Shown piece after piece: positions 1,213 through 22,914 of a stretch of 37,120 nt of DNA. A program made the position numbers and the translations under genes. The DNA is taken from the NCBI GenBank assembly GCA_903945175.1, contig CAJAUM010000003.1, positions 1 to 37,120 on the forward strand, given 5' to 3'. Position 1 is the first letter of the stretch. Every line of letters begins with the position of its first letter. The DNA is from an uncultured Bacteroidales bacterium. GTDB taxonomy: Bacteria > Bacteroidota > Bacteroidia > Bacteroidales > FEN-979. The notes below the pieces were generated by a model. It was not told where the DNA came from, ran no database searches, and worked only from the letters and a program-made list of their open reading frames with translations.

Positions 1213-1274
1213 ATCTTTCCAGTTCGTCACATATCTTACCAGTTCGTCACATTCTGAACGAATGCTAGCATTTT
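1213..1274 (+). promoter_or_regulatory. CTTAC-type direct repeat upstream of the TPR-AraC regulator
   Basis: CTTTC at 1215 and CTTAC at 1235 start two half-sites exactly 20 bp apart. Here the repetition is much longer than at the other sites: CCAGTTCGTCACAT follows the CTTxC-type core in both copies (1218-1232 and 1238-1252). A TAGCATTT element at 1266 could be the -7 box. The same 20-bp repeat occurs before the other RiPP-associated units, so the regulator may control its own gene. The repeat is seen directly; binding is inference. Confidence 0.6.
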
Positions 1275-1316
1275 TACCATAAAATTGTATTAAAGCCATC
1301 CCGTATATCCTCACAA

Positions 1317-3296
1317 ATGAAGACAGCCTCATTTGCACTTATCCTTACCATGTGCACGTTAACAGTATTTTCGAAGGGGTCGGGAAACCCCGCCGGCATG
1401 ATCAAGGCCTTAAATGAAACCGGGCTGGCATTCCTTAACCAAAGCAATACCGAAATGGCCGAAAAGACTTTCATTCAGGCGTTCAGTGATTGCAACCTGT
1501 ACCTTAAGAAAGATCCTTCCAGCCAGCAACTCAGAGACCTTGAGGCAGAAGTCTTCAATAACCTCAGTCTTACCTATATCAAACAGGGAAATTACCGGAA
1601 GGCAAAAGAAAAGCTTCTGCAGTACAGTAAAAAGTCCGATTACAGAAGTCCTTTTTCCGATATGATCATACAGCGGAGCCTTGCAAGCGTTTACCAGAAT
1701 CAGGGGGAGTACGACAGTTCCCTGCTCTGCTACAATAGCGCTCTCGGCTTTGCCCTTTCCCTGAACGATCCTAGGTATACCGGGAAAATATATACTGATC
1801 TCGGAACGACCTGCTATTACATGGGTAAATCATCCGATGCCCTTGGCTACTATGAAAAGGCAAAGGAGGCGCTGGTGTTGGTAAATGACAAACCCCAGAT
1901 GGCCAAATTGTATAACAACATCGCTTCTACCTATTTACAGATATCGTACTATGAAAAAGCCACCAAGTACTTCCTTGAGTCGGCCAGGCTGAAGGAAGAA
2001 CTTGACGATTCGGACGGCCTTGCAGCTACTTATAACAACCTGGGCCTGGTGTATTTTGACTGGGATAATAATAAGATGACCCGTTATTTTTTAGCGAAAG
2101 CCATCTCCATAAACCTGAAAAGGAATAACAAAAAGTACCTGGCCACCAATTATACCGCCATGGGAGACCTCTGTGCGGACCTTAAGCAAGTCGATTCAGC
2201 CTTATTTTATTACACGAAATCGCTTGAGCTTAAAACTGAAATGGGCAACAAATACGGGATGGTAGTTTCACTTCATTCTATTGGAGATCTTTACGCCGGC
2301 CTTCTGATGAACGAAACCATGACCATGGAATATTATCATCAAGCCCTCTCCCTCGCCAACAGTATAGGATCAGAATCGGAGATTGCCGGCCTGAACCTTA
2401 GCCTTGGCGAGATCATGTTCAGGAAAGGAAAGCTGTCTGAAGCACACGCAATGTTCAGTCAGGCGTTTGACTATGCCAACCATGAAAATTCAGTGGAACT
2501 GATTCAGAAATGCAGCCGCTATCTTACAGAAATATGCATACTTACGGGTGATAAGGCGAGGGCAAAGGAATATTTTTCCCGCTACCGGGTTGCAGGTGAC
2601 AGCCTCTTCAGTGAGAATAAAACAAAAGTCATTCTTGAAATGCAAACCCGATTTCAAACAGAAAAGAAAGAGCAGGAGAATCTTTTATTGCAGAAAGCCA
2701 ATGATTTTCATATATCATTGATCAAATTTCTGATTGGTATTGCCATTTTACTGGCTATCCTGGGATTGTCCATTTTTACCTTATTCCGTCAAAAGAGCAG
2801 GGCGCTCAGGCAGATCGTACGAAAAAACCTGGAGATAATAAAAGCTGATAAACACCTTGAATTAATGAGAAGCATAACCACCACGGCTGATCATGCTTTA
2901 GTTTTGCCCCCGGACAATGAAATTGAAAACACAACACTGGGCCTGCTGGTGAAGTTTACCCGCTTAATGGAAAATGAAAAGCCATACCTTGAGGCGGGTC
3001 TTACGGTCGATGATGTATGCCGAAAAATCAATACCAATCGCGCTTACCTCTCGCAAATGATCCATGATAGCTTCAGGCAGAATTTTAACGGGTTCATCAA
3101 TGAACTCAGGATCAAAGAAGCAAGAAGGCTTCTGGCAGGTTCAAATTATGACCATATCTCAATTGAAGGCATAGGATCCATGGCAGGATTCAGTACAAAA
3201 GTTACCTTTCACGCCATCTTTAAAAAACAAATCGGGGTAACCCCTTCCTATTTCCGTAATTCAATTCCAAGAAATATGGATTCCCGCCATAAATGA
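1317..3296 (+). CDS. TPR-repeat membrane regulator with AraC-type HTH
   Basis: This 659-residue protein has an N-terminal export signal (residues 1-20). A long stretch of tetratricopeptide repeats covers about residues 30-430, with repeated patterns such as YNNIASTYLQISYYEKATKY and YNNLGLVYFDWDN. A single transmembrane helix lies near 472-494 (FLIGIAILLAILGLSIFTLF), followed by a cytoplasmic linker and an AraC-family double helix-turn-helix at about 540-655. The layout implies a periplasmic TPR sensor that signals through the membrane to a cytoplasmic DNA-binding domain, a known Bacteroidota design. It follows the LytTR gene on the same strand after 116 bp that contain a copy of the locus-wide direct repeat. 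It is the best candidate to bind that repeat, since AraC domains bind tandem half-sites spaced by about two helical turns. The ligand is unknown. Confidence 0.88.
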   Translation: MKTASFALILTMCTLTVFSKGSGNPAGMIKALNETGLAFLNQSNTEMAEKTFIQAFSDCNLYLKKDPSSQQLRDLEAEVFNNLSLTYIKQGNYRKAKEKLLQYSKKSDYRSPFSDMIIQRSLASVYQNQGEYDSSLLCYNSALGFALSLNDPRYTGKIYTDLGTTCYYMGKSSDALGYYEKAKEALVLVNDKPQMAKLYNNIASTYLQISYYEKATKYFLESARLKEELDDSDGLAATYNNLGLVYFDWDNNKMTRYFLAKAISINLKRNNKKYLATNYTAMGDLCADLKQVDSALFYYTKSLELKTEMGNKYGMVVSLHSIGDLYAGLLMNETMTMEYYHQALSLANSIGSESEIAGLNLSLGEIMFRKGKLSEAHAMFSQAFDYANHENSVELIQKCSRYLTEICILTGDKARAKEYFSRYRVAGDSLFSENKTKVILEMQTRFQTEKKEQENLLLQKANDFHISLIKFLIGIAILLAILGLSIFTLFRQKSRALRQIVRKNLEIIKADKHLELMRSITTTADHALVLPPDNEIENTTLGLLVKFTRLMENEKPYLEAGLTVDDVCRKINTNRAYLSQMIHDSFRQNFNGFINELRIKEARRLLAGSNYDHISIEGIGSMAGFSTKVTFHAIFKKQIGVTPSYFRNSIPRNMDSRHK

Positions 3297-3326
3297 TACA
3301 ACTGAAAATCCTGGCGTTTTTAAAAT

Positions 3327-3399
3327 TTCTTACTCCCTTTTATTTATTCTTACCTGCATTTGTTGATTACGACTGCTGACGGCTCTAATTTTATACTTC
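3327..3399 (+). promoter_or_regulatory. CTTAC-N15-CTTAC promoter of the leader-only NHLP gene
   Basis: CTTAC begins at 3329 and 3349, a 20-bp period. TAATTTTA at 3386 lies 37 bp after the second half-site, as at the other promoters of the set; TATACTTC at 3392 is an alternative -7 box. TTTG occurs at 3359. The implied 5' untranslated region is about 185 nt, far longer than at the sister promoters. Confidence 0.6.
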
Positions 3400-3470
3400 A
3401 AATCAGAAAAGAACATCCGGGTTTATCAAAAATAATATTCATTTAAAAAACACCAAAAATCTCGGGGAGT

Positions 3471-3540
3471 GATTCTTGCGAGCAGCAAACAAATTAGGGC
3501 AAGAATCGGCTGAAAATTTGAACTCATGGTATTCCGATTC
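3471..3540 (+). promoter_or_regulatory. two mutually exclusive hairpins in a long 5' UTR
   Basis: GATTCTTGC at 3471-3479 is a perfect reverse complement of GCAAGAATC at 3499-3507. The overlapping GAATCGG at 3503-3509 pairs perfectly with CCGATTC at 3534-3540. The two stems share GAATC and cannot form together. This is the arrangement of an attenuator or RNA switch, just upstream of the start codon at 3585. The pairings are read from the sequence; a regulatory role is inference. Confidence 0.35.
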
Positions 3541-3584
3541 ATAAGAAGCAATTTGGATTTTCTAAGCGGCCATGCAATTTCCAT

Positions 3585-3875
3585 ATGGAAAAGTCCAGGT
3601 TAAAAAAACAAATCGAAAGACGGCTTGTTGGAAAAGCGCTGCAGGACGATACTTTCAGAAGGCTGCTATATAATAACCCCAGGCTGGCCATTGAACTCGA
3701 GACCGGGGTATACATTCCACCGTCCTTAAAAATAAAATTACTGGAAGAGGAACCTCAGACCATATACGTGGTAGTTCCGGCGAAAAGCCTTCAGCAGAAT
3801 GAATATGAGAAAACCGGAACCAGGCTTCTTGATATCCCGGAAGGAATCAGCAATTTTGACCTGATGAAGGTTTAA
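3585..3875 (+). CDS. NHLP leader-like protein lacking GG site and core
   Basis: This 96-residue protein carries the nitrile-hydratase-like leader pattern seen in the other five precursors of the locus. It has a helical N-terminus (VGKALQDDTFRRLL), NPRLAIELETGV, PPSLKIKLLEEEPQTIYVVVP and then an acidic tail. Unlike them it ends without a double glycine, has no cysteine, and finishes in DIPEGISNFDLMKV. It therefore cannot be a normal lanthipeptide precursor. It may be a regulatory or decoy leader, a chaperone-like partner of LanM or the C39 transporter, or a decayed precursor. Its own direct-repeat promoter and long structured 5' UTR argue against simple decay. Its 3' end overlaps the converging exporter gene by 4 nt. 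Confidence 0.75.
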   Translation: MEKSRLKKQIERRLVGKALQDDTFRRLLYNNPRLAIELETGVYIPPSLKIKLLEEEPQTIYVVVPAKSLQQNEYEKTGTRLLDIPEGISNFDLMKV

Positions 3876-6778: not shown

Positions 6779-6789
6779 GGCAGTTATCC

Positions 6790-8988: not shown

Positions 8989-9011
8989 GCTGAAGCGTAT
9001 GATTTTCCTGA

Positions 9012-9818: not shown

Positions 9819-9844
9819 ATCTTAAAGAGTGAAATAACAAAAAA

Positions 9845-9852: not shown

Positions 9853-9902
9853 GTTGTGTTTTTAAAAATACCTGCCAGCGGTCTTGTCTTGATCATCACT
9901 TT

Positions 9903-9977
9903 TTTACAAAATCTTACTCCTTTTTTTAAATCCTTACTTATTGAGATTGGAAATTGCTTCGTTAGTGCTTACTTTTG
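9903..9977 (+). promoter_or_regulatory. CTTAC-N15-CTTAC promoter of the 10052 precursor unit
   Basis: CTTAC starts at 9913 and 9933, 20 bp apart, with an extra TTTAC at 9903, one helical turn upstream. ATTG at 9946 serves as a weak -33 box. TACTTTTG at 9970-9977 is a perfect TAnnTTTG -7 box, 37 bp from the second half-site with a 20-bp spacer. Confidence 0.68.
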
Positions 9978-10051
9978 ACATGCAAATAATAATTCAAGAC
10001 CAGTATCAGAAGGTAAGAATTTCGTAAAACAGACAAAAATCATTGGTTATT

Positions 10052-10339
10052 ATGTCAAATTTAAGAATCAAGCTGGAACAACAGATCATCGACAAAGCAA
10101 TGAAAGATGATTCATTTCGTAAGCATTTGCTTGAAGACCCTAAAACCGCATTCGAACAGGAGTCCGGGATAACACTTCCCGCATCCTTTAAGATCACCGT
10201 TCTGCAGGAAGATCAGCACAATGTATACCTTATCCTTCCGCCATTCCGGGGCGATGTGGCTGAAGATGAACTTTCGGAAGCAGAACTGGCCTCAGTCGCC
10301 GGGGGGACAGGTTGGGGGGGACCCGGCCAGGGATCATAG
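10052..10339 (+). CDS. NHLP-leader RiPP precursor, Gly-rich Cys-free core
   Basis: This 95-residue precursor has an 85-residue nitrile-hydratase-like leader (IIDKAMKDDSFRKHLLEDPK, SGITLPASFKITVLQEDQ, VYLILPP) and an acidic segment ending in SVAGG. The predicted core after GG is only TGWGGPGQGS: ten residues, half of them glycine, with no cysteine. LanM could dehydrate Thr or Ser but could not form a thioether ring, so this core may serve a different enzyme. An in-frame TTG at 10043 exists, but ATG 10052 matches the sister peptides' starts. The next gene on the strand (10382) begins 42 nt later and is likely its partner. Confidence 0.85.
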   Translation: MSNLRIKLEQQIIDKAMKDDSFRKHLLEDPKTAFEQESGITLPASFKITVLQEDQHNVYLILPPFRGDVAEDELSEAELASVAGGTGWGGPGQGS

Positions 10340-10381
10340 CCCCGGCCAACACGGTGAGCGCTTTTCGGGCAAAAAATTTTT

Positions 10382-11422
10382 ATGAAACTTTCCTTCGCCG
10401 ATCATATCGAAATCATTTCCACCCCCCTTCATTCCACCTTGATGGGGGGTGGCTGCATGGACTCATTGAAAGAGCTCTGTTCACTTTTTCCTTTTGACCT
10501 GTCGCGCGATTTTGGCTTTGAAAGCCGGCTGGGTGAGCCCTCGGCCGCCTGCGATTTTTCGTTTCTGATCGGGAAAGACACTGAAGGGGCAAAGATACTG
10601 GCCGGAAAAAACCCAATATCGGATCTGCATGAAAGTTTACTTGCCGATCCCCTCTGGCAACGAATAAGGAGATTTTTTTTTGAATGGAATACGCAGGGAC
10701 CTCTTTTAGCCGGCTCGGTGGAATCAGTATGGTTTGAGTTTGACTACGACGGAAAATCGTATAACCGGTGCCCGAATATTTTCTTCGGGATCGTTGCCGA
10801 CGGGAAAACAGGCCGGAAAGCCTGGGCTGAATCAACAATCAGGATACTGGATGAAATTTATCATATCCTTTTCAACATTCCATTCCCCGTCGAATTAGCG
10901 GCAAACCTGCGAATGTCAATCCTTGCACTTCCCGAACATGCCTGTTTATACCAGACCGGCCTCATGATCCCAAGGCATGCCGAGGCGGTGAGGCTGGTGC
11001 TTACAAAAATTAACGCCGGCCATCTGGAACCTTACCTCCGGGATATCTGTTGGCCGGGAGATTTTCAGAAAGTCAGCTTTCTGACCGATCGTTATGCCGG
11101 CCTGTTCGATTATTTCGTCTGCAATATCAATATAGGAAAGGAGATTCTTCCTTACCTGGCATTGGAGATGCTCTTTACGAATCTCAGCCAGCCCCGGTTT
11201 AATCCGAAGTGGGAGGCTGCGCTGGATGTTCTGGAATCAGACAAATTGGTGACGCGTGAAAAAAGGGAAGCCCTCCTCAGCTTCTGCGGAAAAACAAAGT
11301 GTGAGTTTCCTCATCCGGCAAATTACATCAGGGGCCTCAATCACCTTAAAATTGTGTGTAAGGAGCGTGCGCCAGTTGAATGTAAGGGCTATTTCGGAAC
11401 CATGATGCGGGATGGATTTTGA
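10382..11422 (+). CDS. unrecognised 346-aa protein of the RiPP locus
   Basis: I cannot assign this protein to a family from sequence alone. It is soluble, with no signal peptide or membrane segment. Seven cysteines are scattered without a CxxC pattern typical of Fe-S enzymes. Notable segments are SVESVWFEFDYDG (about residue 115), ALPEHACLYQTGLMIPRHAE (about 180) and a C-terminal RGLNHLKIVCKERAPVECKG. The last looks like a terminal beta-strand pair of an enzyme that binds a phosphate or substrate. It follows the Cys-free precursor 10052 by 42 nt on the same strand, so it is probably co-expressed and could modify that peptide. It converges with the nucleotidyltransferase gene. A role in peptide modification is inference from position only. 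Confidence 0.72.
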   Translation: MKLSFADHIEIISTPLHSTLMGGGCMDSLKELCSLFPFDLSRDFGFESRLGEPSAACDFSFLIGKDTEGAKILAGKNPISDLHESLLADPLWQRIRRFFFEWNTQGPLLAGSVESVWFEFDYDGKSYNRCPNIFFGIVADGKTGRKAWAESTIRILDEIYHILFNIPFPVELAANLRMSILALPEHACLYQTGLMIPRHAEAVRLVLTKINAGHLEPYLRDICWPGDFQKVSFLTDRYAGLFDYFVCNINIGKEILPYLALEMLFTNLSQPRFNPKWEAALDVLESDKLVTREKREALLSFCGKTKCEFPHPANYIRGLNHLKIVCKERAPVECKGYFGTMMRDGF

Positions 11423-11453
11423 GAATCGCTGAGCAGTCTTACCTGGATTGAAC

Positions 11454-12521: not shown

Positions 12522-13588
12522 AGTGCTTCCGGTTTTATCGTTCCTGAATGGGTCTTCTGATAGAACACCAGCGAATCGAGTACGGCTGCCGTGGTAAACA
12601 ACGACCTGTGATCGGTAACCACGGTGCCCCAGGCAGCTCCTTTTCCATCAGGCCAGCTCCCGGGATCGACCGGTATATTCATAAAAGGCGGAGGAACCTG
12701 CAGCAAGGCAGAGGGTTGCCACGATCCGTTGTCCTGCTGCCGGCTGATGAGCCATCGGGCAACCGCCCCGGATTTTTCACGGGTCTTGTCAACCTCCCCG
12801 GCAAGAAGCAGGGTCTTTAAAGCCAGGGCTGTGGCAAAGGGAGATCCCTCACGAAAAACCTCATTGGCAACAAAAGCTTCCCTGCCGAAATGCTGCATCG
12901 CCCAGGAGAACGCCCGGTCAATTGCATCGCGGTGTTCAGTCATTCCTGCCACAAGCAGGGCCTCCGTCGCATGAGCTGTGGCATAAGCGGAATCGCTCCA
13001 CCAGTAACCATTCCAGTTCCCGGCGGGAAGCTGATGTTCCAGGATGTAGGGCAAAAGGATGCTGCTGAACCTAGGAATCCCCGCAGCCGCGGCGGTCACA
13101 CAGAGGTGTGAACCCGTCCATCCCCGGATGTCCTCTTCAGGCGTGGCGCCAATCAGTTTTCTAAGCTCTTTTTCAAGGATGTATGTGGTGATCCCGCCAT
13201 CTGTTAACCAATGCTTCAGAAGAAACTCCTCCGCTGCCTTTGTCCTGAACTTCCCATCCAGGCCGAGGCTTAGAGCAAACCTGATACCCCATACCGTGCT
13301 GTCGGCATCCTCGGGGGTGAGCAAGTTATATCCCCATCCCCCGTGACCGGTGAACAATTTTTGGGCGGCAAATGCGTTCCAAACCTCCTTCGTTTCCCTG
13401 ATGACACGGTCATCACCAGTACAGGCGAGGACTGAACCTACAAATCCTGTAACCCACCCGCTGCTCTCCCCGACGGGAAGGCGAAAATCGGACCACAGCC
13501 CCTGCGGATCCCTTGAACATAACAGGAAACCTGATGCTCTGCTGATGGCTTCGGCAATCAAAACATGAAGGGCATGAATCATTGACAT
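12518..13588 (-). CDS. prenyltransferase/squalene-cyclase-fold protein
   Basis: This protein of about 356 residues is built of alpha-alpha repeats of the terpene cyclase / prenyltransferase type. QW-like motifs are visible (QLPAGNWNGYWWSDSAYATA and SRQQDNGSWQPS), as are the repeated helices AHATEALLVAG and ATALALKTLLLAG. The class II cyclase acid motif DxDD is only partly present, as EDADSTVWGIRFAL, where the last Asp is Ser. Protonation-type cyclisation is therefore doubtful. The frame is open to an ATG at 13654, but a TATCTTTG -7 box at 13641-13634 implies the start is ATG 13588 (or 13582). It is coupled to the nucleotidyltransferase gene by a 4-nt overlap. It could be a peptide-modifying or isoprenoid enzyme, or a binding scaffold. 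Confidence 0.78.
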   Translation of the reverse strand: MSMIHALHVLIAEAISRASGFLLCSRDPQGLWSDFRLPVGESSGWVTGFVGSVLACTGDDRVIRETKEVWNAFAAQKLFTGHGGWGYNLLTPEDADSTVWGIRFALSLGLDGKFRTKAAEEFLLKHWLTDGGITTYILEKELRKLIGATPEEDIRGWTGSHLCVTAAAAGIPRFSSILLPYILEHQLPAGNWNGYWWSDSAYATAHATEALLVAGMTEHRDAIDRAFSWAMQHFGREAFVANEVFREGSPFATALALKTLLLAGEVDKTREKSGAVARWLISRQQDNGSWQPSALLQVPPPFMNIPVDPGSWPDGKGAAWGTVVTDHRSLFTTAAVLDSLVFYQKTHSGTIKPEAL

Positions 13589-13633
13589 ACAGTGCGTTAT
13601 TTTTTTTCCCGTTCGGGTAGTCCAGGGAAGAAT

Positions 13634-13641
13634 CAAAGATA
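13634..13641 (-). promoter_or_regulatory. -7 box of the cyclase/nucleotidyltransferase operon
   Basis: The minus strand reads TATCTTTG, a perfect TAnnTTTG element, 46 nt before ATG 13588. It lies inside the longer open frame that reaches 13654 and so argues for the shorter protein. No CTTAC repeat is found at the expected distance. Confidence 0.45.
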
Positions 13642-13688
13642 AAAAATCCGGCAAACAGAATTTTTCAAAATCGGGACATTTTCACAAT

Positions 13689-13756
13689 TTCTTACCTCTA
13701 TTTACAATTTCTTACTTCTTGTGTTTGGTTATAACCCGGTATGAGACATATCTTTA
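13689..13756 (+). promoter_or_regulatory. CTTAC-N15-CTTAC promoter of the precursor-LanM operon
   Basis: CTTAC begins at 13691 and 13711 (20 bp), with TTTAC exactly between them at 13701, so AATTTCTTAC-like units recur each helical turn. TTTG at 13724-13727 and TATCTTTA at 13749-13756 form a -33/-7 pair with a 21-bp spacer. The start codon of the precursor is 51 nt downstream. Confidence 0.7.
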
Positions 13757-13807
13757 CCTGAGCAGCTGAACATATTATAATATTATCGAAATAAATTCAA
13801 TGCAACC

Positions 13808-14119
13808 ATGGCAAACCTCAAATTAAAACTGGAACATCAGCTCATCGAAAAAGCGATGAAAGATGATTCATTCCGCAAGAAATTACTGGAGGATCCGAAA
13901 AATGCCTTCGAACAGGAAACAGGAATACCACTTCCATCATCCTTAAGGATCAATGTCCTGCAGGAAGACCAGCACAACGTTTACATTGTTCTGCCGCCAT
14001 TACAAAGCGAGGCCGGTGAATCTGAACTCACCGAAGCAGATCTTGAATCTGTTGCAGGGGGATACCCCGGGCTCTGGACTGATGGGGCCGCTTGCACGAA
14101 GAATCTGCCTCACGACTAA
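13808..14119 (+). CDS. NHLP-leader lanthipeptide precursor (one Cys)
   Basis: This 103-residue precursor has an 85-residue leader very close to that of 10052 (LIEKAMKDDSFRKKLLEDPK, then VLQEDQHNVYIVLPP) ending in ESVAGG. The core YPGLWTDGAACTKNLPHD has 18 residues, one Cys and two Thr, so at most one thioether ring could form. It is the first gene of the operon that continues 65 nt later with the LanM gene. Its promoter carries the locus-wide direct repeat. It is the most obvious cognate substrate by position. Confidence 0.88.
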   Translation: MANLKLKLEHQLIEKAMKDDSFRKKLLEDPKNAFEQETGIPLPSSLRINVLQEDQHNVYIVLPPLQSEAGESELTEADLESVAGGYPGLWTDGAACTKNLPHD

Positions 14120-14184
14120 AACTCATATTAGGCCGGATGCAGGCCCTACGGTAAAGAGAAGTTCTCAAGTATAAAAAACAGGTG

Positions 14185-17100
14185 ATGACCTCACGACCAT
14201 CGATCAGCTTTTACAAAGATATGGCAGCCAGGGCAGTAAGGCTACAGGAAAAAATTGACGAGCCTCTGCTGTTTGATTTCATCCCGGGCAGCGAACGGGA
14301 AATTGGTGAGCGCCTGTCCGAATGGCGTAAGGCCATTGGGCCCGACGATGATGAGATGTTCATGAACAGGCTGAAAAACGACGGTCTGTGCGAAGATGAC
14401 CTGCCTAACCTGCTCGGAAATGTTTCCTTTAAAAACGAAGACCGGCTTCCGCTGTGGATCACTCCTTTCGCGGAATTAATGGATTTTTTAGGGTCTTATG
14501 AACCTGCTGATCTTGCAGCAGAAATGACAAAGCTTTTCGGTATTGATGAGGAGAAAAATATTCCTTTTCTCCACCTCATCACCCCCTTTGTGGCTTACGC
14601 CCTGCAGAAGCTGGATCATGAAACGGCAGGCCAAAGACCGGAATTATGCACCCGGGAAGCCTGCCTGATGCTCAACCTTCAACTGGCAAGGACGCTGGGA
14701 TCATATTCTTGCCCGACTTTTCAGCTTGAATTCAGGGTGTTTACCTCATCCCGGCGGTCGTCTGTTTCACGTCTTTTTGACATGAATCCTACAGAAGAGA
14801 ATCCTTCAAATGAACTGTATCTTCAATTCACTACCGGTATATTCAACAATGGCTGGCAGGACTTTTATTTAGAATACAGTGTTCTGGCCAGGATCATCAC
14901 CACGTTAGTGGCCAACTGGACAAGAAATACGGCCAATTTTCTGAACCGCCTGGCGGATGATATTCGTGATATTGCGGGCAGGTTTTCGGGTGGCATTCCT
15001 CCTGGCCGAATAACAGCGTATTCGGGAGGCATATCCGACTCGCATGATCATGGCAAAGCAGTGATATCACTGAATTTTGAATCGGGTTTGAAACTGGTAT
15101 ACAAGCCCAAAAACCTGGAGCTTGAACAGGCCTGGTCGGATTTACTGAAATGGTTTAACGATAATGGACTGGATCCCGGGCTTATACCCTTGGAAGTACT
15201 TCAGAGGAAGAGTTACGGATGGGTTGGCTTTATTGAAGCCGGGGAATGTTTGTCGCAGGAGGAGGTGGCTGATTATTACCGGCGGATAGGATCCCTTACC
15301 GGCATCATTTATATGCTCAACGGCAATGACTGCCATTACGAGAACCTGATTGCCTCCGGTTCATACCCGGTCCTGGTCGACCTGGAAACGGTGATGCACC
15401 ATGAAGGCAGGATGTTTGCCGGGGACCAGCCTGATTGCGCAATATCCCTTGCCTCCAGGCAAATCGGGGTGTCAGTATTCCGCACCGGGCTGCTGCCAGG
15501 CTGGATCCTGGGCAAAGACGGATTTGTATATGATGTAAGCGCCACGGGAGGATACGAGCATGCCGAATCGCCTTACAAACGCCAGAAGTGGGAGAATGTA
15601 AATACCGACAGTATGGACGTAAGGCTCATTCCCATCACGTTTGGCAATCAGCACAATATGCCACTTCTCGAAGGCCTGGCACAACTGCCTTCACGCTATA
15701 CCGATGAGATTGTAAGAGGCTTTACTGCATTCTACAAACTGATAATCAAGCACAAAAGCGAGATCCCTATCCATCTTTTTGCCGGAAAGGAATTGAGGTT
15801 TATTTTCCGTTCGACAAGGATCTACGGTATGATCATGAAAACCATGATGGATCCGAAGTACATGCGCAAAGGCATTGACCGCAGTATACGGGCCGAGCTC
15901 CTTTGCCGTGCATTTCTGCATCAGCCTGCCCCAAACCCCGATTGGGCCATCTGCAAATCGGAGATAAATCAGCTGGAAGAGACCGATATCCCGATCTTCA
16001 AAGCCGACTCTGATAAAAAAACCCTGAAAGACAACACCGGGCCGGTATGCGAGGATTACATGAACGGGGCTGTTTATGACCTGGTAATAAATCATCTGCA
16101 GGAAATGGATGAGAACGACCTCAGGAAACAAACGAAGTTCATACGTGCTGCATTTTTCTTCAGGGATATCTCTCATGAATCCGTTAATGAAAAGGAGGAG
16201 ATCAGGATCTCTCCCTTGCAGGAACATCAGCCTCTCAGGCCCGGGATGCTTATTGAAAAAGCAATGAAAATAGCTCAAATGCTTAAATCGGAAGCTGTTA
16301 TTTCGAAGGACGGCAGTTGCTCATGGCTAACAGTAGGAATTATCCCCGGAACAGAACGCTACCGCATGGAGCCTATGTCGATGTTCTTATACGACGGCTT
16401 ACCTGGAGTAGCCCTGTTTCTCTCGGCTCTCAATTCCGTTTCACCCGACCCATTGCCGGCATGGCTCCTGGATGCGACAGCAATTTCTATCAGGCAGGGT
16501 ATCAGGAATATGCAGCAGAACGCAGGTCTCATGAGAACGGGCCCGGTAGGAATCGCTGCCGGACTGCCTTCCGTAATCTATGCCCTTCTCAAAATATACG
16601 AATTTACAGGCGACCCATCCTTTATTGATGATGCTATCACGGTATGCAGCCTGGTCACACCCTTTATGATAAACAGCGACAATTCGTTCGACATCCTCTC
16701 GGGAAGCGCGGGATGCATTCTGGCCATGCTGTCGCTTTATAAACTGACGAAACATGAGCAGGCAATTGAAAAAGCCATTCTTTGCGGAAGGCATCTGGCT
16801 TCGAATCTTAATGAATCTGCGGATGGACATTGGGGCTGGAAAACGATGAATGGCAAAATGCTTACAGGCTTCTCACACGGGCAGGCCGGCATCGCCCATT
16901 CCCTGCTGAAGCTTTATGAACAAACCGGTTCGGCTGAGTATTTCGATGCTGCAGATAAAGCCATACAGTATGAGAACAGCCTGTTCTCAGCCGAATTCAG
17001 CAACTGGCCCGATCTCAGGGAACTTTCCGGAAAACCCGGGTCAGGCCCCGTATATATGTCTTCATGGTGCCATGGAGCCCCGGGGATTCTGCTCGGCCGA

Positions 17101-17463
17101 CTCGCTTCCCGGCATCTTTACAAAAACCCTGAGATAGAAACAAATATCAGCGAGGCTGTAAAAACATGCCGGATGAACCCCGTAAATGGCCGGGACCATC
17201 TTTGCTGCGGCAGCCTCGGGCTGGCCGATATACTGTTGTATGCCGGCATAAGAACAGGCAATGAGGATCTGAAAACCGAAGCTTCACTCAGGGTTCAGAA
17301 GGTCCTTGAAAGGGCGGAGCGAAAAGGACGGTATACCCTGTTCGCCGGTCAGGAAGATGATGTCTTCAACCCCGGCTTCTTCCAGGGCCTTTCAGGGATA
17401 GGCTACGAAATGCTTCGGTTTGCTTTCCCTGAAAAACTGCCGTCGGTCCTGATCTTTGAATAA
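14185..17463 (+). CDS. lanM: class II lanthipeptide synthetase LanM
   Basis: This bifunctional enzyme of 1092 residues should dehydrate Ser/Thr in the precursor core and cyclise with Cys to form (methyl)lanthionine. The N-terminal dehydratase (DUF4135-type, about residues 130-600) has the kinase-like KLVYKPKNLELEQAW near 305 and LNGNDCHYENLIASG near 378. The C-terminal LanC-like cyclase (about 725-1085) has the zinc ligands in SSWCHGAPGILLGR (Cys about 962) and DHLCCGSLGLADI (Cys about 1007). The conserved His is in GFSHGQAGIAHSLL. All key motifs are intact. A GTG directly before the ATG is an alternative start. One synthetase serves several NHLP-leader precursors here, as in the prochlorosin system of cyanobacteria, where one ProcM handles many. 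Two precursor genes follow directly downstream. Confidence 0.96.
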   Translation: MTSRPSISFYKDMAARAVRLQEKIDEPLLFDFIPGSEREIGERLSEWRKAIGPDDDEMFMNRLKNDGLCEDDLPNLLGNVSFKNEDRLPLWITPFAELMDFLGSYEPADLAAEMTKLFGIDEEKNIPFLHLITPFVAYALQKLDHETAGQRPELCTREACLMLNLQLARTLGSYSCPTFQLEFRVFTSSRRSSVSRLFDMNPTEENPSNELYLQFTTGIFNNGWQDFYLEYSVLARIITTLVANWTRNTANFLNRLADDIRDIAGRFSGGIPPGRITAYSGGISDSHDHGKAVISLNFESGLKLVYKPKNLELEQAWSDLLKWFNDNGLDPGLIPLEVLQRKSYGWVGFIEAGECLSQEEVADYYRRIGSLTGIIYMLNGNDCHYENLIASGSYPVLVDLETVMHHEGRMFAGDQPDCAISLASRQIGVSVFRTGLLPGWILGKDGFVYDVSATGGYEHAESPYKRQKWENVNTDSMDVRLIPITFGNQHNMPLLEGLAQLPSRYTDEIVRGFTAFYKLIIKHKSEIPIHLFAGKELRFIFRSTRIYGMIMKTMMDPKYMRKGIDRSIRAELLCRAFLHQPAPNPDWAICKSEINQLEETDIPIFKADSDKKTLKDNTGPVCEDYMNGAVYDLVINHLQEMDENDLRKQTKFIRAAFFFRDISHESVNEKEEIRISPLQEHQPLRPGMLIEKAMKIAQMLKSEAVISKDGSCSWLTVGIIPGTERYRMEPMSMFLYDGLPGVALFLSALNSVSPDPLPAWLLDATAISIRQGIRNMQQNAGLMRTGPVGIAAGLPSVIYALLKIYEFTGDPSFIDDAITVCSLVTPFMINSDNSFDILSGSAGCILAMLSLYKLTKHEQAIEKAILCGRHLASNLNESADGHWGWKTMNGKMLTGFSHGQAGIAHSLLKLYEQTGSAEYFDAADKAIQYENSLFSAEFSNWPDLRELSGKPGSGPVYMSSWCHGAPGILLGRLASRHLYKNPEIETNISEAVKTCRMNPVNGRDHLCCGSLGLADILLYAGIRTGNEDLKTEASLRVQKVLERAERKGRYTLFAGQEDDVFNPGFFQGLSGIGYEMLRFAFPEKLPSVLIFE

Positions 17464-17496
17464 TATAATAGATGTTTAATTCTCAAAACTGCAATT

Positions 17497-17799
17497 ATGA
17501 AACAGAGAGAACAATTTGATCAGCAGCTCATCGAAAAAGCGATGAAAGACCAGGATTTCAGACAGCGGCTTCTTGAAAATCCGAAAACCGTTATCGCAGA
17601 GGAAACGGGAGTAAAAATTCCGGAAGGATTAAACGTAAAGGTATTGCAGGAAGACCAGAGTTCGGTATACCTGGTTCTGCCATTTATTTATCCCGAGAGC
17701 AAAGAGACTGAACTGTGCGAATCGGAACTGGAAATGGTTTCAGGAGGGAACAAGTGGACGTTTGAAGGGTGTGGACCTGGAGACGGATCAACTTATTAA
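17497..17799 (+). CDS. NHLP-leader lanthipeptide precursor (one Cys, Gly-rich)
   Basis: This 100-residue precursor begins 33 nt after the LanM stop and is probably co-transcribed with it. The 84-residue leader ends in EMVSGG, and the core is NKWTFEGCGPGDGSTY with one Cys, two Thr and one Ser. Its leader is almost identical to that of 21899 at DNA level over about 70 nt (AAAAAGCGATGAAAGACCAG and on). This points to recent duplication with divergence confined mainly to the core. Confidence 0.88.
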   Translation: MKQREQFDQQLIEKAMKDQDFRQRLLENPKTVIAEETGVKIPEGLNVKVLQEDQSSVYLVLPFIYPESKETELCESELEMVSGGNKWTFEGCGPGDGSTY

Positions 17800-17834
17800 T
17801 AAAAACAAGGTATTAATTGCAAATAACGCTCAGC

Positions 17835-18140
17835 ATGAAAACAAAAGAAGAATTTCAGCAGCATCTCATCGAAAAAGCGATGAAAGACCCGGATTTCAGG
17901 ATGAAGCTTCTTGAAAACCCGAAAGCAGTTATTGAAGAAGAAATCGGGGTTAAGATTCCCGGATCAGTTGACATAAAAGTTTTGGAGGAGGATCCTAAGA
18001 CAGTATACCTGATCCTTCCATGTACTCAAGCTCAATCTGAAGAGACAGTGTTAACAGAAACAGACCTGGAAATGATCGGCGGTGGCTGGGGCGGTGGTTG
18101 GGACCCTACCTACACTTTTATTGGTTGTCCATGCAGGTAA
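17835..18140 (+). CDS. NHLP-leader lanthipeptide precursor (CxC core)
   Basis: This 101-residue precursor lies 35 nt after the previous one. The leader of 83 residues (LIEKAMKDPDFRMKLLENPK, then VYLILP) ends in EMIGG. The core GWGGGWDPTYTFIGCPCR has two Thr and a CPC pair near the end, enough for two rings. An in-frame TTG at 17817 is a less likely start than ATG 17835. The GWGGGW stretch resembles the TGWGGPG core of 10052, so the Gly/Trp-rich segment recurs in two otherwise different products. Confidence 0.87.
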   Translation: MKTKEEFQQHLIEKAMKDPDFRMKLLENPKAVIEEEIGVKIPGSVDIKVLEEDPKTVYLILPCTQAQSEETVLTETDLEMIGGGWGGGWDPTYTFIGCPCR

Positions 18141-18213
18141 GGATACCGGATTGCAATGGCGTGGCTAAAAAGAAGGTTCTTACAAAAGGCATAAATGGTG
18201 GCTTTTTGTTGTT

Positions 18214-18280
18214 TTCTTTCTCCTTTTGTGAAATCCTTACTTGCTTAGTTTGAATTCAAGGCCAATTGAAGTTATACTTG
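18214..18280 (+). promoter_or_regulatory. CTTAC-type promoter of the C10 protease gene
   Basis: CTTTC at 18216 and CTTAC at 18236 keep the 20-bp period. TTTG at 18249-18252, a 20-bp spacer and TATACTTG at 18273-18280 make the clearest complete Bacteroidota promoter of the set. The start codon is 52 nt downstream. Confidence 0.7.
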
Positions 18281-18332
18281 TTCGTGAGCATGAAAGTATC
18301 CTTTTAACTCTAGATTATGAATAATCAAAACC

Positions 18333-20915
18333 ATGAAAAAACTGATCCTTTTAATCCTGTCTGCTGTATTTCTGGTCAGCGCCGGGTCCGGAAAAACCGT
18401 TGACGCAGAACGCGCAAAAATTGTTGCGGCAAATTACCTGGCTTCCATGCCAGCACGGTTTCCTCAGGGTATACCAGACGGACTGACTTTATGTTATACA
18501 TCTGCAGAAAACAATACGTCCGATATGAAAGCATCCGCTGCGCCATTGTTTTACGTGTTCAACGTAAACGGCCTCCATGGCTTTATCATCATTTCGGCGG
18601 ATGATATTATCCCCCCCGTCCTGGCTTATTCTTACGAAACCAGTTTCACTGCAGATGACATTCCACCGAATGTTGCTACCTGGCTCAAAGGATATGAAGA
18701 TCAGATCGGTTATGCCATCAGATCGAACCTGGATCCGGCTCCTGAAGTTCAGTTAGAATGGACCACTCTGAGCGATGGCCCTAGGCGGGTGAACGCACTT
18801 AAATCAGCCACTGGAGTTGGCCCGCTTGTCACCACCCTGTGGAGTCAACGCCCGTTCTATAACGATTTATGTCCGTACGACAGTACCTATAATGACCGTG
18901 CCGTATCAGGATGCGTTGCAACGGCCATGGCCATGGTCATGAAATATCATAATTATCCGCCGAACGGAATTGGCTCTTATTACTACTATTCGGCCCGGTA
19001 TGGAACCCTGTCGGCTAATTTCGGTGCAGCGACTTACCAATGGGCCGACATGCCCAACACGCTTAGTTCAGCAAACACAGCCGTGTCCACCCTGATGTAT
19101 CATTGCGGTGTGGGTGTAAAGATGGATTACAATGTTGGATCACAGGGAGGCAGCAATGCCTGGGTGATTGCTGCGGAAAGAGCGGAGTGTGCCGAGAATG
19201 CACTGAAAAACTATTTCGGTTATGCAAGCACGCTGCAGGGACTGACGAAATCAGATTATACCGACTCGCAGTGGATCAGCATTCTGAAAACCGAACTCGA
19301 TGCCGGCCGGCCAATGGTTTATGCAGGGTACGGCTCCGATGGAGGACACTGCTTTGTTTGCGACGGTTATAATGACAGTACCTATTTTCATTTCAACTGG
19401 GGCTGGGCAGGGAACTGCAATGGTTATTTTCTCCTTAACAATCTGAACCCTCACCTCGACTGGGACTTCACCGGAAAACAGCAGGCCATAACAGGGATTC
19501 AACCACCAGATCCTTCCGGAGGAGGGAACAGGTTTTACAATCTTGCATTGAATGCGACTGTCACCTGCCCTTCCGACACCATCCACTACCAGGATTCCCT
19601 CTCGTTCCATACCGACATCATCAACAACGGACCGGTCACCTTCAGCGGCGACATTTCAGCCTGCATCTACGATACCAACGGGATCTTCATCCGGGAAGTT
19701 CAGACCATCCGGGAAGTGACGCTTTTACCCGGAAGCCATTTTCCAAACGGAGTCACCTTCACAAATCCTGGTCTCTCCTCCGTATTTCCGAACACCTATT
19801 TCGTTGGGATCATGTACAGCCAGGGTGACTCGAACCGAATCATTGTTCACGACACCAATGCCTTCCACAATGATAAACGGCTGGTGGTCATTAACGCCAA
19901 CCCGGTAGAAATGTATACGGCGATGAGTATAAGCCCCGGCCTGCGCATCCAACAGGGAGATTCGGTAAGCGTAGATCTCGGCATCGTCAACCATGGAACC
20001 ACTGCCATGAACGGGACACTGGACCTTTCTATGTATGATGTGGGAGGAAATTATGTGAATTCTATCAACGGAATTACAAATTTCACTCTCCCGGTGAACG
20101 AACATACGGCCGGTCTGACATTCAGTGCTCAAAGCATCAATGTCGAACCCGGCTGTTACTTTATCACGCTGAGGTACCAGCCCACCGGATCGACCGGCTG
20201 GCAACTGATCGGATCTGCCGCTTATGCAAACCCGGTCATGATCCGGGTCAATGCGGTTCCTCTGGTGGCCGATCAGTATGAACCCAATGACACTTCCATG
20301 ACCGCAAGCCCCCTGCCGGTAAGTTTCGAAACAAACCCGGCAATCGTTAAAACCGAGGGCGCCAACTGCCATACAGGAACAGATTATGACTTTTATACAC
20401 TTTCCTTCCCTCCGGGCTTTACCTATGTCATTACAGGTAACCTGATTGATTATTACACTGACCCCACCCATACTTATACCCTCGACGCACAATGGTCCTC
20501 GTCCACCAACGGAACGACCTGGTCGGAGAATTATACTGACACCCTCCCCGTTATCATCTTGAATAACGGCGGAACGATCCTGTTCCAGGTTTCCCCATAT
20601 TACGTCGGAGAGACAGGAACTTACCAGGCTGTCATACAGATAAGCAGGAATCCGCTGGGCGTAAATGATCAGATGCAGACTGACGGATTCAGGGTTTATC
20701 CCAATCCTGCATCAAATTTTTTAACCATCGAAACATCAGCAGTACAAACGCCGGGTCAATTATCCATCGTAAACCTGGATGGCCGGCAGCTCATCACATT
20801 CCAAATCACCCAAACCAAAACGCAATGCAACATCAGCAGCCTGCGCGGCGGCGTGTATTTTGTGCGGCTCACAAACGAAAAGGCTGTATGGACGGGGAAA
20901 TTTGTAAAGTTGTAA
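18333..20915 (+). CDS. secreted C10 (streptopain-like) cysteine protease, T9SS
   Basis: This 860-residue protein has a signal peptide (1-20), an inhibitory pro-region (about 25-140) and a C10 peptidase domain (about 160-385). Catalytic Cys194 lies in SGCVATAMAMVMKYHNYP and His339 in DGGHCFVCDGYND, followed by YFHFNWGWAG. Ig-like modules and a possible PPC domain fill about 395-770. A type IX sorting domain (VYPNPASNFLTIE to the end, about 787-860) directs the protein to the cell surface or medium. Its promoter carries the same direct repeat as the precursor genes, so it is likely co-induced with the lanthipeptides. It may trim exported peptides, degrade competitors' proteins or act independently. 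The active-site assignment is clear; the link to peptide maturation is inference. Confidence 0.93.
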   Translation: MKKLILLILSAVFLVSAGSGKTVDAERAKIVAANYLASMPARFPQGIPDGLTLCYTSAENNTSDMKASAAPLFYVFNVNGLHGFIIISADDIIPPVLAYSYETSFTADDIPPNVATWLKGYEDQIGYAIRSNLDPAPEVQLEWTTLSDGPRRVNALKSATGVGPLVTTLWSQRPFYNDLCPYDSTYNDRAVSGCVATAMAMVMKYHNYPPNGIGSYYYYSARYGTLSANFGAATYQWADMPNTLSSANTAVSTLMYHCGVGVKMDYNVGSQGGSNAWVIAAERAECAENALKNYFGYASTLQGLTKSDYTDSQWISILKTELDAGRPMVYAGYGSDGGHCFVCDGYNDSTYFHFNWGWAGNCNGYFLLNNLNPHLDWDFTGKQQAITGIQPPDPSGGGNRFYNLALNATVTCPSDTIHYQDSLSFHTDIINNGPVTFSGDISACIYDTNGIFIREVQTIREVTLLPGSHFPNGVTFTNPGLSSVFPNTYFVGIMYSQGDSNRIIVHDTNAFHNDKRLVVINANPVEMYTAMSISPGLRIQQGDSVSVDLGIVNHGTTAMNGTLDLSMYDVGGNYVNSINGITNFTLPVNEHTAGLTFSAQSINVEPGCYFITLRYQPTGSTGWQLIGSAAYANPVMIRVNAVPLVADQYEPNDTSMTASPLPVSFETNPAIVKTEGANCHTGTDYDFYTLSFPPGFTYVITGNLIDYYTDPTHTYTLDAQWSSSTNGTTWSENYTDTLPVIILNNGGTILFQVSPYYVGETGTYQAVIQISRNPLGVNDQMQTDGFRVYPNPASNFLTIETSAVQTPGQLSIVNLDGRQLITFQITQTKTQCNISSLRGGVYFVRLTNEKAVWTGKFVKL

Positions 20916-20973
20916 AATCGCCCTCGCCCACCAGCCTTCTCCTGAATGAGAAGATCATTCCAGTTAAAGAACC

Positions 20974-21627
20974 TTATTTGGATAATCCTTTTGAAAGGAA
21001 CTTGCCAAAGGAGATTCCGGCTTGATCATAACATGCCTGCAGGCGCATACCAACTGCAAAATCGAAGGTCATGTCGCCGTATGATACCTGTACCTTTTTA
21101 AGTACATTTTTCATTTCAACAGAAGCAATTACCTTTGAATGATCTGCTGTTTCCACTATATCTATCAACAGGCTGATGAAGGCCTCTTTTTTTGAAACAC
21201 CAATATTCCAACCGGGATCAACAAAAAAAGTTTTCACTAAGAGCGTATACTTGGCATCAGATCCATTCTCTTTCCCAACTACTCCTTGTTTTTCAAGTTT
21301 CTCATTGAATGCCTGCAGGAATGCCGGCTGAAAAAGCCTGCTACGGTCATCCTTCCAGGCCTGGGCCCAGCGGTCGCCGTCGCCCGGATTTTTGGCATTT
21401 AGGTCTGAAGTCTTTTTATCGACATACTCTTTTTCGGGGGTACCCTTGCCTGTCGCAAATGGATTTGCCGCATTGCCAACGGTTATATTTGAATATTCAA
21501 ACATAACATTCAGCGTTTTTTCACCTTTTAATGCATCCAGGCTGCCGGAGGTTAATTTCTGTGCAGCCAGGTTGACGGTTGATATCATGAATACCGCCAT
21601 CAACAGTAAAATTCCTGGTCTTTTCAT
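20974..21627 (-). CDS. exported protein of unknown function, regulon member
   Basis: This 217-residue protein has a clean signal peptide (MKRPGILLLMAVFMISTVNL then AAQ). Mature segments include SGSLDALKGEKTLNVMFEYS, GDRWAQAWKDDRSRLFQPAF and YTLLVKTFFVDPGWNIGVSK. I recognise the general type from Bacteroidota genomes as an uncharacterised periplasmic or surface protein, without a known function. The frame opens at 21681, but the -7 box at 21671-21664 lies inside that stretch, so ATG 21627 is chosen. It is transcribed divergently from precursor 21899, and both promoters carry the direct repeat. Co-regulation hints at a role in immunity, envelope protection or peptide handling, which is inference. 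Confidence 0.8.
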   Translation of the reverse strand: MKRPGILLLMAVFMISTVNLAAQKLTSGSLDALKGEKTLNVMFEYSNITVGNAANPFATGKGTPEKEYVDKKTSDLNAKNPGDGDRWAQAWKDDRSRLFQPAFLQAFNEKLEKQGVVGKENGSDAKYTLLVKTFFVDPGWNIGVSKKEAFISLLIDIVETADHSKVIASVEMKNVLKKVQVSYGDMTFDFAVGMRLQACYDQAGISFGKFLSKGLSK

Positions 21628-21663
21628 ACTGGTTCGTTTTTTGTTAATGTTTTTTTTGCAGGA

Positions 21664-21730
21664 TAAAAGTATAGTCATCACCGGCCCAGTACAAGGAAAG
21701 CAGGTAAGAATCTTACAATACGAGTAAGAA
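21664..21730 (-). promoter_or_regulatory. CTTAC-N15-CTTAC promoter, minus strand
   Basis: On the minus strand CTTAC runs 21728-21724 and again 21708-21704, 20 bp apart. TACTTTTA at 21671-21664 starts 37 bp after the second half-site, and CTTG stands at the -33 position. This is the same geometry as the plus-strand sites, on the opposite strand and in front of a minus-strand gene, which is strong support that the element is functional. Confidence 0.68.
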
Positions 21731-21778
21731 AAAATAAAAAACCGGAAGAAACCGGTCTAACCCAGGCTTTTTTACAAT

Positions 21779-21852
21779 TCTTTACCTCTATTGTTAAATC
21801 CTTACCTGCTTCGTTTTTACATATGGCCACTTGAAGGTATATTTATCCTTTG
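21779..21852 (+). promoter_or_regulatory. CTTAC-type promoter of precursor 21899
   Basis: TTTAC at 21781 and CTTAC at 21801 are 20 bp apart. TATATTTA at 21838-21845 is 37 bp after the second half-site. TATCCTTTG at 21844 is an alternative -7 box. A T-rich -33 region lies at 21814. Confidence 0.65.
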
Positions 21853-21898
21853 AAAAAGAAAGTATCTGCTTCATACCAGATAAATAATCCTCAAAACC

Positions 21899-22219
21899 AT
21901 GAAAAACAGACAACAATTCGAACAGTCGCTCATCGAAAAAGCGATGAAAGACCAGGATTTCAGACAGCGGCTTCTTGAAAACCCAAAGGCGGTCATTAAA
22001 GAAGAAACAGGGGTTGAGTTTCCGGCAACCCTCAACCTGAGAATTCTCGAGGAGGATCCTCACACAGTGTACTTGATCCTTCCGTTTATACCGTCTCGGT
22101 TAAATGAAACTGATCTGGATGAAACTGAGCTGGAAAGGATTGCCGGAGGGGGGCAATTTACAGGGTTCTCCTTTTGTCATACATGTGGTTGTGACTCTTT
22201 TACCCGTGAATGTGAGTAG
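21899..22219 (+). CDS. NHLP-leader lanthipeptide precursor (four Cys)
   Basis: This 106-residue precursor has an 84-residue leader (LIEKAMKDQDFRQRLLENPK, EETGVEFPATLNLRILEEDP, TVYLILP) ending in ERIAGG. The 22-residue core starts GQFTGFSF and contains CHTCGC. Core cysteines are at positions 9, 12, 14 and 21, with three Thr and two Ser, making it the richest lanthipeptide-like core of the locus. It is encoded 4.4 kb from LanM with its own direct-repeat promoter and is followed by a small exported protein. Because CHTCGC also looks metal-binding, a metal-chelating product is an alternative to multiple thioether rings. Confidence 0.88.
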   Translation: MKNRQQFEQSLIEKAMKDQDFRQRLLENPKAVIKEETGVEFPATLNLRILEEDPHTVYLILPFIPSRLNETDLDETELERIAGGGQFTGFSFCHTCGCDSFTRECE

Positions 22220-22267
22220 TAATTTCCCAGCTTATATTTTTATTTGAAAACTTTAAATCCCGAACAT

Positions 22268-22837
22268 ATGAAAACCAAACTCTTATTTCTTTTTATCAGT
22301 CTCAATTGTTTGATTAACAATTTACAATCTCAGGATATCCTGGTTTATAACAACGGAGACGAAGTCCAGTCTAAAGTTATAGAGGTAACCGATGACAATA
22401 TAAAATATAAAAAGTGGGGAAATCTAGACGGACCATCGTATACGGCCATTAAAAAGGACGTTTTAATGATAAAATATCAGAATGGATCGAAAGATGTATT
22501 TAATAATCAGCCGGCTCAGACTAATTCAAATACTGTTGTAACACAGAAAAAGTCTGAACCGGGAAAAATCTGCTTTTATTCTTCAGATAAACGGATTGAT
22601 CAGATAGATATTTACGTTTATTATTATGACGAAGCCGGAGTAAAGAAATCAAGAGTCGGTCAGTTGGATTTCTATTTCAAAGGCCGTCCCGATTGCGGTC
22701 AGGATGGTACGTATACTTTAAATCTTCCGCCGGGCGATTATGACTACTATGCTGTTGAAGACGTTGTTTACGAAATGAAGGGCGCGTTCTCAGTAATTGA
22801 AAACCAATGTTCTTTTGTTGATGTCATATGCAGATAA
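22268..22837 (+). CDS. small exported protein of unknown function
   Basis: This 189-residue protein has a signal peptide (MKTKLLFLFISLNCLINN then LQSQ). Its N-terminal module is DILVYNNGDEVQSKVIEVTD followed by KYKKWGNLDGPSYTAIKKDV and IKYQNGSKDVF, which is common in Bacteroidota exported proteins of unknown role. The C-terminal half (CFYSSDKRIDQIDIYVYYYD to the end) is tyrosine-rich with three Cys. It starts 48 nt after the four-Cys precursor and is likely co-transcribed with it. It is a candidate for immunity or peptide binding, by position only. An in-frame TTG at 22244 is a weaker start. Confidence 0.78.
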   Translation: MKTKLLFLFISLNCLINNLQSQDILVYNNGDEVQSKVIEVTDDNIKYKKWGNLDGPSYTAIKKDVLMIKYQNGSKDVFNNQPAQTNSNTVVTQKKSEPGKICFYSSDKRIDQIDIYVYYYDEAGVKKSRVGQLDFYFKGRPDCGQDGTYTLNLPPGDYDYYAVEDVVYEMKGAFSVIENQCSFVDVICR

Positions 22838-22847
22838 TCTGACCAAA

Positions 22848-22914
22848 TTTATCTGTCTTTTGTTATATCCTAACTTGCAATATTCTGAAACAATGATCTT
22901 TAACATAAAGTTTC
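22848..22914 (+). promoter_or_regulatory. degenerate CTTAC-type promoter of the S8 protease
   Basis: CTAACTTGC at 22870 matches the second half-site CTTACTTGC with one change. The first half-site, expected at 22850, is degraded (ATCTG), although the T-rich spacer between them is kept. TAAAGTTT at 22906 lies at the same distance as the -7 boxes of the other sites. This is the weakest member of the set. Confidence 0.4.

Follow-up and report, generated by a model that had tools for sequence, protein, structure and literature searches.

Several genes for exported peptides and proteins of an uncultured Bacteroidales bacterium are preceded by the same direct repeat, two CTTAC words at an exact 20-bp period, which raises the question of whether the repeat marks one common response and which protein reads it. 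The locus fills one whole contig (CAJAUM010000003.1) of the 4.4-Mb assembly GCA_903945175.1, analysed here from position 1 to 37,120 and called the window. It encodes peptide precursors of the NHLP type, a LanM-type lanthipeptide synthetase, two proteases with surface-sorting tails and, at its left end, two candidate regulators: a LytTR protein (304) and a protein that joins a TPR array, a transmembrane (TM) helix and an AraC-type DNA-binding domain (1317; hereafter the AraC protein). We conclude that a compact regulon is probably real and that the AraC protein is its probable reader.

Identification of the motif

Exact CTTAC-N15-CTTAC pairs occur four times in the window (3329, 9913, 13691 and, on the minus strand, 21728), against 0.02 expected from 100 shuffles, and 1215, 18216 and 21781 join the list when one mismatch is allowed. 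The 20-bp direct repeats reported in a preliminary description of the window do therefore exist. With up to two mismatches there are 35 window matches for 19.6 expected, and the pair proposed at 22850 is absent from the list. Genome-wide, the exact pattern is found four times, always in the window contig; this count was dropped as evidence because a reversed control pattern is commoner (14 matches). The bare 10-base pattern is enriched in place, not in number, and the real evidence is a longer motif.

Six strong sites (3329, 9913, 13691, 18216, 21781 and 21728 on the minus strand) align without gaps across about 65 bases, and each of them, including the minus-strand one, faces the gene downstream, as had been claimed. 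When matrices were built from five of the sites and scored over 74,112 window positions, every left-out site ranked right behind the five training sites, with scores of 31.3 to 50.1. The matrix made without 3329 gave that site 44.0, whereas the top score over 100 dinucleotide-shuffled windows was 22.8. A sequence-only model of the six sites (R1), run on the whole genome, returned seven strong matches at 40.7–47.0 bits, followed by the next at 13.0 bits. The seventh site (C52:4800–4853, minus strand) lies on another contig, was found blind outside the training set and precedes an NHLP precursor (TIGR03793, 77.4 bits). A genome-wide scan, in which random intergenic regions might have scored as often as this locus, had been proposed as a way to refute the element; the gap from 40.7 to 13.0 bits speaks for it.

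The motif is rare among relatives. In a sample of 43 genomes of the family it is present in three: seven sites in the own genome, eight in G008 of the same genus (the weakest at 25.8 bits) and five in G029 of another genus. These 20 sites, 14 of them outside the training set, gave a second model (R2). Across 393 genomes of the order, where the matches included neither G008 nor G029, only the own genome exceeded 40 bits with R2; six others had single partial matches at 20.6–22.8 bits, which are taken as chance. One weak R2 match lies in a motif genome (G008:C252:825–881, 18.9 bits, E = 0.0056). A scan for relatives gave 76 loci, two of them close (metagenome-assembled genomes of uncultured Bacteroidales) and 74 at 30% identity or less, and the motif scan left those 74 out.

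The site list of the preliminary description thus stands for the six strong sites. Its site at 1215 fails (score −24.2, rank 271), and 22850 (−2.9, rank 13 in the leave-out matrix test) is kept only as a weak half-site, a degenerate element with the proximal half alone (22857–22901, plus strand; R1 12.0 bits, E = 0.97; R2 20.0 bits, E = 0.0019 genome-wide). Overlooked there were the site on C52, the NHLP precursor at 10052 behind site 9913 and the T-rich box within each half-site.

Operator and promoter architecture

In the alignment of the 20 sites the operator consists of two tandem 20-bp half-sites, about TTTTTnACAATTTCTTACTC and CTTTTGTTAAATCCTTACTT, 40 bases in total. The halves agree at a lag of 20 (0.65; a mean of 13.0 of 20 bases identical); agreement falls to 0.49 at lag 21 and does not exceed 0.42 at seven others, so the earlier view of half-sites two helical turns apart is upheld. 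Within each half, a TTTT(G) box and the CTTAC box lie about one turn from each other; the pattern is clear in the distal half and less so in the proximal half, whose linker is also conserved. Information peaks at −12 to −9 and −3 to 4, and again at 7–12 and 15–24.

A −7 box stands at a fixed register in all 20 sites and all three genomes: counted from the first base of the second CTTAC, it begins 37–38 bp downstream (32–33 past CTTAC), where TAnnTTTG-like boxes had been proposed. Judged by eye it is a strict TAnnTTT in 18 of the 20; the exceptions are TATACTTG at site 18216 and TTACTTTG at one site of G029. In 19 sites the proximal CTTAC is followed, 8–9 bases on, by a loose T-rich −33 word. 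Part of PMC7366714 gives the main Bacteroidota promoter consensus as TAnnTTTG at −7 with a TTTG-like −33. Judged from its sequence, the predicted promoter is of this main sigma type, and the operator abutting −33 is in the place of a putative activator, as the preliminary description had suggested.

Two direct half-sites beside a promoter are also found for XylS at Pm and MtlR at PmtlE, in the portions of the published accounts that deal with their sites. Each XylS half-site likewise has two boxes about one turn apart, named A and B and separated by 6 bp (PMC5481539, in part), and the MtlR site extends over 37 bp or more upstream of −35 (PMC4514859, in part). The present system differs from both in its own box sequence, its Bacteroidota-type promoter, its targets, which are exported peptides and proteins, and its candidate reader, whose DNA-binding domain is linked to a TPR array and a predicted TM helix.

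The AraC protein as candidate reader

The AraC protein (1317–3296, plus strand) has a TPR array (Pfam TPR_12, 8.5e-30) and a C-terminal double helix-turn-helix domain (HTH_18, residues 568–648, 4e-13). By eye it also has a probable signal peptide and a single TM helix. Orthologs above 1200 bits are present in three of the 43 family genomes, the same three that hold the motif, and the next best match has 240 bits; in the order sample no match besides the own protein exceeds 285 bits. Two sets of three in 43 coincide by chance once in 12,341, an arithmetic figure that ignores kinship. In each motif genome a site lies 16–54 bases past the AraC stop codon. NHLP leaders occur in six of the 43 genomes, and three of these (G015, G017 and G066) have leaders with neither AraC ortholog nor motif.

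Because the orthologs are in the same three genomes, the window LytTR finds no counterpart at E 1e-10 in the other two and NHLP genomes without the AraC gene lack the motif, the motif appears to go with AraC and neither with LytTR nor with NHLP as such; from three genomes this is support, not proof. We consider it likely that the 40-bp repeat is the operator of the AraC protein, which would activate the promoters of NHLP, protease and exported-protein genes.

A fold model of the protein is confident in the TPR part. Its best matches in the PDB belong to the LGN type of TPR protein, and Rap proteins, some with bound peptide, follow from rank 36; such a mixture of TPR proteins says nothing specific on the ligand. 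The own protein has its signal peptide joined straight to a later TPR unit (1317–1420, compared with loci L073 and L074), and the G008 ortholog has about 100 extra N-terminal residues.

Relatives of the AraC protein or its parts are common, with matches in 60 of 61 Bacteroidales genomes searched and 15 in the own genome. Some other regulator, linked to the cluster or encoded elsewhere, might accordingly read the motif, the AraC protein being a neighbour with other targets. Co-occurrence is unable to single out one gene within a linked cluster, and in G008 the AraC gene has as its neighbour a TPR protein whose C-terminus looks LuxR-like by eye. The AraC protein is nevertheless the sole DNA-binding protein recognised beside sites in all three genomes, although no full domain scan of the relatives' loci was made, and in all three its gene is followed by a site. 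We regard another reader as improbable.

Several points weigh against the AraC protein as reader. Its binding and activation are inferred from co-occurrence and synteny; since the three carriers are related, the co-occurrence counts as at most three events, and any gene moving with the cluster would show it equally. The fold model gives the DNA-binding domain low confidence. LytTR operators can resemble the CTTAC repeat. In G029 the gene after the site that follows AraC encodes a type IX tail protein instead of an NHLP precursor; one of three NHLP matches there, beside AraC, has no preceding site, and eight of the 12 NHLP matches in G008 are on contigs where no strong site was seen. The scan of the 43 genomes was run with stricter filters, by which weak matches were lost, and absence of AraC ortholog and motif from G015, G017 and G066 (98, 87 and 69% complete) may be a gap, because the genomes are drafts.

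LytTR proteins and a separate repeat

The competing explanation that a LytTR-type regulator reads the CTTAC repeat, be it the membrane protein of the window or another of the genome, draws on the layout of the site. LytTR operators are described in part of PMC4847170 as two repeats of 9–11 nt, 11–13 nt apart, and in part of PMC6193735 as direct repeats about 10 bp before −35, several of them ending in CTTA(C/T); one listed there is ACCACTTAC-12 bp-ACCACTTAC (a further source, also in part, is PMC4227749). The repeat period of about two turns, the position before −35 and the CTTA(C/T) endings all fit, the LytTR gene stands at the left end of the window, and a link to bacteriocin-like genes is a further likeness (PMC6193735, in part). 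The CTTAC operator is, however, conserved over 40 bp, far wider than two 9-mers and far beyond the 9–11 nt of the LytTR definition.

The distribution of LytTR proteins also speaks against their reading it. At E 1e-10 the window LytTR finds no match in G008 or G029, and its 74% relative sits in G064, where no R2 match exceeds 13.8 bits. Further relatives are in G022 (in two pieces, 57 and 70%) and, at 24%, in three more genomes (G021, G028 and G065). The own genome has nine LytTR matches, and co-occurrence by itself does not discriminate against those common to all genomes. A comparison of 68 protein frames from six genomes, leaving out a short piece on C42, placed relatives of the other seven own LytTR proteins, with best identities of 65–90%, in the motif-less genomes G064, G013 or G032. 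None of the own LytTR proteins compared occurs with the motif and is missing without it, and in this the present system departs from LytTR systems. The preliminary description had named AraC (1317) or LytTR (304) as a suitable reader; the former is retained, and the latter is not accepted but kept as a rival of low probability.

The window LytTR tracks another repeat. Between the LytTR and AraC genes, CCAGTTCGTCACAT is found twice at a period of 20 (1219–1252, plus strand), an element also labelled the CCAGTTCGTC box in distinction from the CTTAC box, and it lies outside the regulon. The repeat at 1215/1235 was rejected as a regulon member: its CTTAC positions read CTTTC/CTTTC in a second copy on C42 (196–229) and CCTTC/CCTTC in G064, and the CCAGTTCGTCACAT-like repeat stays. 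Genome-wide there are two copies without mismatch and three more at three mismatches, compared with two for the reversed control. CCAGTTCGTCACAT-like repeats adjoin the window LytTR and its near relatives in four places in three genomes; in G064 (L082/L285) the repeat follows the LytTR gene at a period of 21, and G022 (L083) has a diverged form, while none was seen at the loci of the three 24% relatives. The C42 copy (L006, L075) stands behind a second copy of the LytTR gene end and before a C10-like protease; the two copies differ at 6 of 231 positions and diverge two bases past the repeat. The LytTR gene end and repeat are thus duplicated, once before AraC and once before the second C10-like protease. 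By eye, −7-like boxes follow the start of the second repeat after 41 (own), 53 (C42) and 52 (G064) bases. We take the double CCAGTTCGTCACAT as the LytTR operator.

The LytTR frame (304–1200) has no ATG, GTG or TTG before a GTG at 499, although by eye an ATG is present further upstream in the G064 relative; the window copy may be damaged or begin at a rare codon.

Composition of the regulon

The first genes after the 20 sites, assigned by Pfam where scanned and otherwise by eye, comprise eight NHLP precursors, four C10 proteases or other type IX-tail proteins (three tails by Pfam, the G029 C10 protease by likeness), six other exported-looking proteins, among them one on G008:C449 with a seemingly interrupted frame, and two that do not look exported. 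The latter, a HATPase protein and a patatin-like protein, follow strong sites at 3120 and 12113 of locus L080 (G029:C12), so that in G029 the regulon extends beyond the secretome. The pairing of site and gene recurs in two genomes each for the C10 protease, the exported protein at 20974–21681 and the NHLP precursor behind AraC (by eye).

As NHLP genes are paralogs, and eight of the 20 sites precede them, the boxes might be mere copies by descent, promoters duplicated with their genes and under no common regulator. The same box stands before genes as unlike as those for the C10 protease, the patatin-like and HATPase proteins and exported proteins of unknown function, and the 20-site alignment shows little conservation between the promoter boxes or at either edge. 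Descent alone is a very improbable explanation.

In the window, five operators with −33/−7 promoters lie on the plus strand and one on the minus strand, all of them R1 training sites. The genes named with them read on the plus strand except where minus is stated. The first (3313–3396; R1 41.5 bits, R2 47.9 bits) precedes a short NHLP precursor (3585–3875; TIGR03793 56.6 bits, cut-off 50.9), and the second (9897–9980; 47.0 bits with R1, as are the following) the precursor at 10052–10339 (77.5 bits at 10067–10306). The third (13676–13758; 41.2 bits) precedes precursor 13808–14119 (79.1 bits) and the LanM gene (14182–17463; DUF4135 3.4e-113, LANC_like 2.2e-59), which begins 62 bp behind it and likely forms one operon with it. 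Two further precursors after LanM (17497–17799, 84.5 bits; 17835–18140, 82.3 bits) have no site of their own and are in line with site 13691; the other five of the seven NHLP precursors found in the own genome, which are spread over two contigs, each have one.

The fourth operator (18200–18283; 44.6 bits) precedes a C10 peptidase that carries an inhibitor propeptide and a type IX secretion tail (18333–20915; Peptidase_C10 5.9e-57, Inhibitor_I69 2.8e-19, Por_Secre_tail 3.5e-15). The minus-strand operator (21661–21744; 42.6 bits) stands before an exported protein without Pfam match (20974–21681, minus strand), of which a look-alike with its own site is seen by eye in G029. The start of this gene is likely the ATG at 21627, because 21681 falls inside the promoter. 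The last (21765–21848; 45.8 bits) precedes precursor 21899–22219 (88.0 bits), and 24 bp after this gene opens the frame of another exported protein without Pfam match (22244–22837, plus strand), with similarly placed look-alikes in G008 and G029. An S8 protease with type IX secretion tail (22990–25224, plus strand; Peptidase_S8 5.2e-43, Por_Secre_tail 2.8e-11) has only the weak site at 22850.

Membership as first described accordingly holds for the NHLP precursors, LanM by its likely operon, the C10 protease and the exported proteins. It does not hold for the AraC gene, which has no CTTAC site of its own, 1215 being another element, nor in full for the S8 protease.

The locus has the hallmarks of NHLP-type clusters for ribosomally synthesized and post-translationally modified peptides with LanM: TIGR03793 leaders above the cut-off in six window genes, the exporter pair TIGR03796 and TIGR03797, both above cut-off, and LanM itself. 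The HlyD gene scores 91.3, short of its cut-off of 156.2. Unlike in known clusters, precursors on two contigs share an operator, and a surface protease has it too. No strong site was seen before the NHLP exporter genes in the window or at the G029 locus, where the exporter was recognised by eye. A minus-strand candidate at 10001–10039 was rejected as exporter operator (R1 10.8 bits, E = 2.38, and by eye no −7 box at the right distance).

The precursors themselves are shared between genomes. That at 10052–10339 and one in another genus (L074, 14512–14799) have the identical ending GGTGWGGPGQGS after the leader; it has no cysteine, and therefore no lanthionine could form in it. A near-identical cysteine-rich core (FTGFSFCHTCGCDSFT.EC.) is found in all three genomes (21899–22219; L074, 7310–7786; L077, 8905–9225), where its precursors adjoin the same exported protein of unknown function. 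NHLP genes also neighbour a 346-residue protein of unknown function (10382–11422), an AbiEii-like nucleotidyltransferase (11454–12521) and a squalene-cyclase-like protein (12518–13654), and by eye the same three-gene set lies beside NHLP genes in G029 (L074, 11267–14469). Possibly these are peptide-tailoring enzymes.

Discussion

In the mechanism that we propose, two AraC DNA-binding domains would sit side by side and in the same direction on the two 20-bp half-sites. Placed beside −33, the pair would assist RNA polymerase carrying the main Bacteroidota sigma factor at TTTG / TAnnTTTG promoters. The signal would enter through the N-terminal TPR array, which the signal peptide and single TM helix predict to be periplasmic. 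The output would be the joint production of NHLP precursors, in one case in a likely operon with LanM, of the C10 protease with its surface-sorting tail and of other exported proteins. In this genome only, LytTR may feed into AraC, as the AraC gene stands behind the LytTR gene and the LytTR-associated repeat.

A more speculative thought is that the periplasmic TPR array has as its ligand the NHLP peptide after export, or a piece of leader released by the C39 exporter or the C10 protease, in which case the peptide would stimulate its own production. We hold this to be unlikely. If true, the AraC protein would act within a single chain as a peptide receptor across the membrane of a Gram-negative bacterium, and its operator would delimit the full response.

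An AraC-type activator on a tandem repeat is a known kind of system, and transmembrane transcription regulators likewise combine a sensor part, a TM helix and a DNA-binding domain in a single polypeptide. Within the reach of our searches, the combination of a membrane TPR-AraC protein with NHLP lanthipeptides and a surface protease is new. By term search, the main text of a 2023 survey of transmembrane regulators contains neither AraC nor TPR (PMC10269533, main text). Our literature search found no paper combining NHLP, AraC and promoter, and none giving any TPR-TM-AraC relative a binding site or target set.

In conclusion, a 40-bp operator with 20 sites in three genomes now has one candidate reader, which makes the pairing testable. 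The regulon tells which peptide precursors form one output of this bacterium, among them one located on another contig, and on the reading preferred here the surface protease is probably made together with the peptides.

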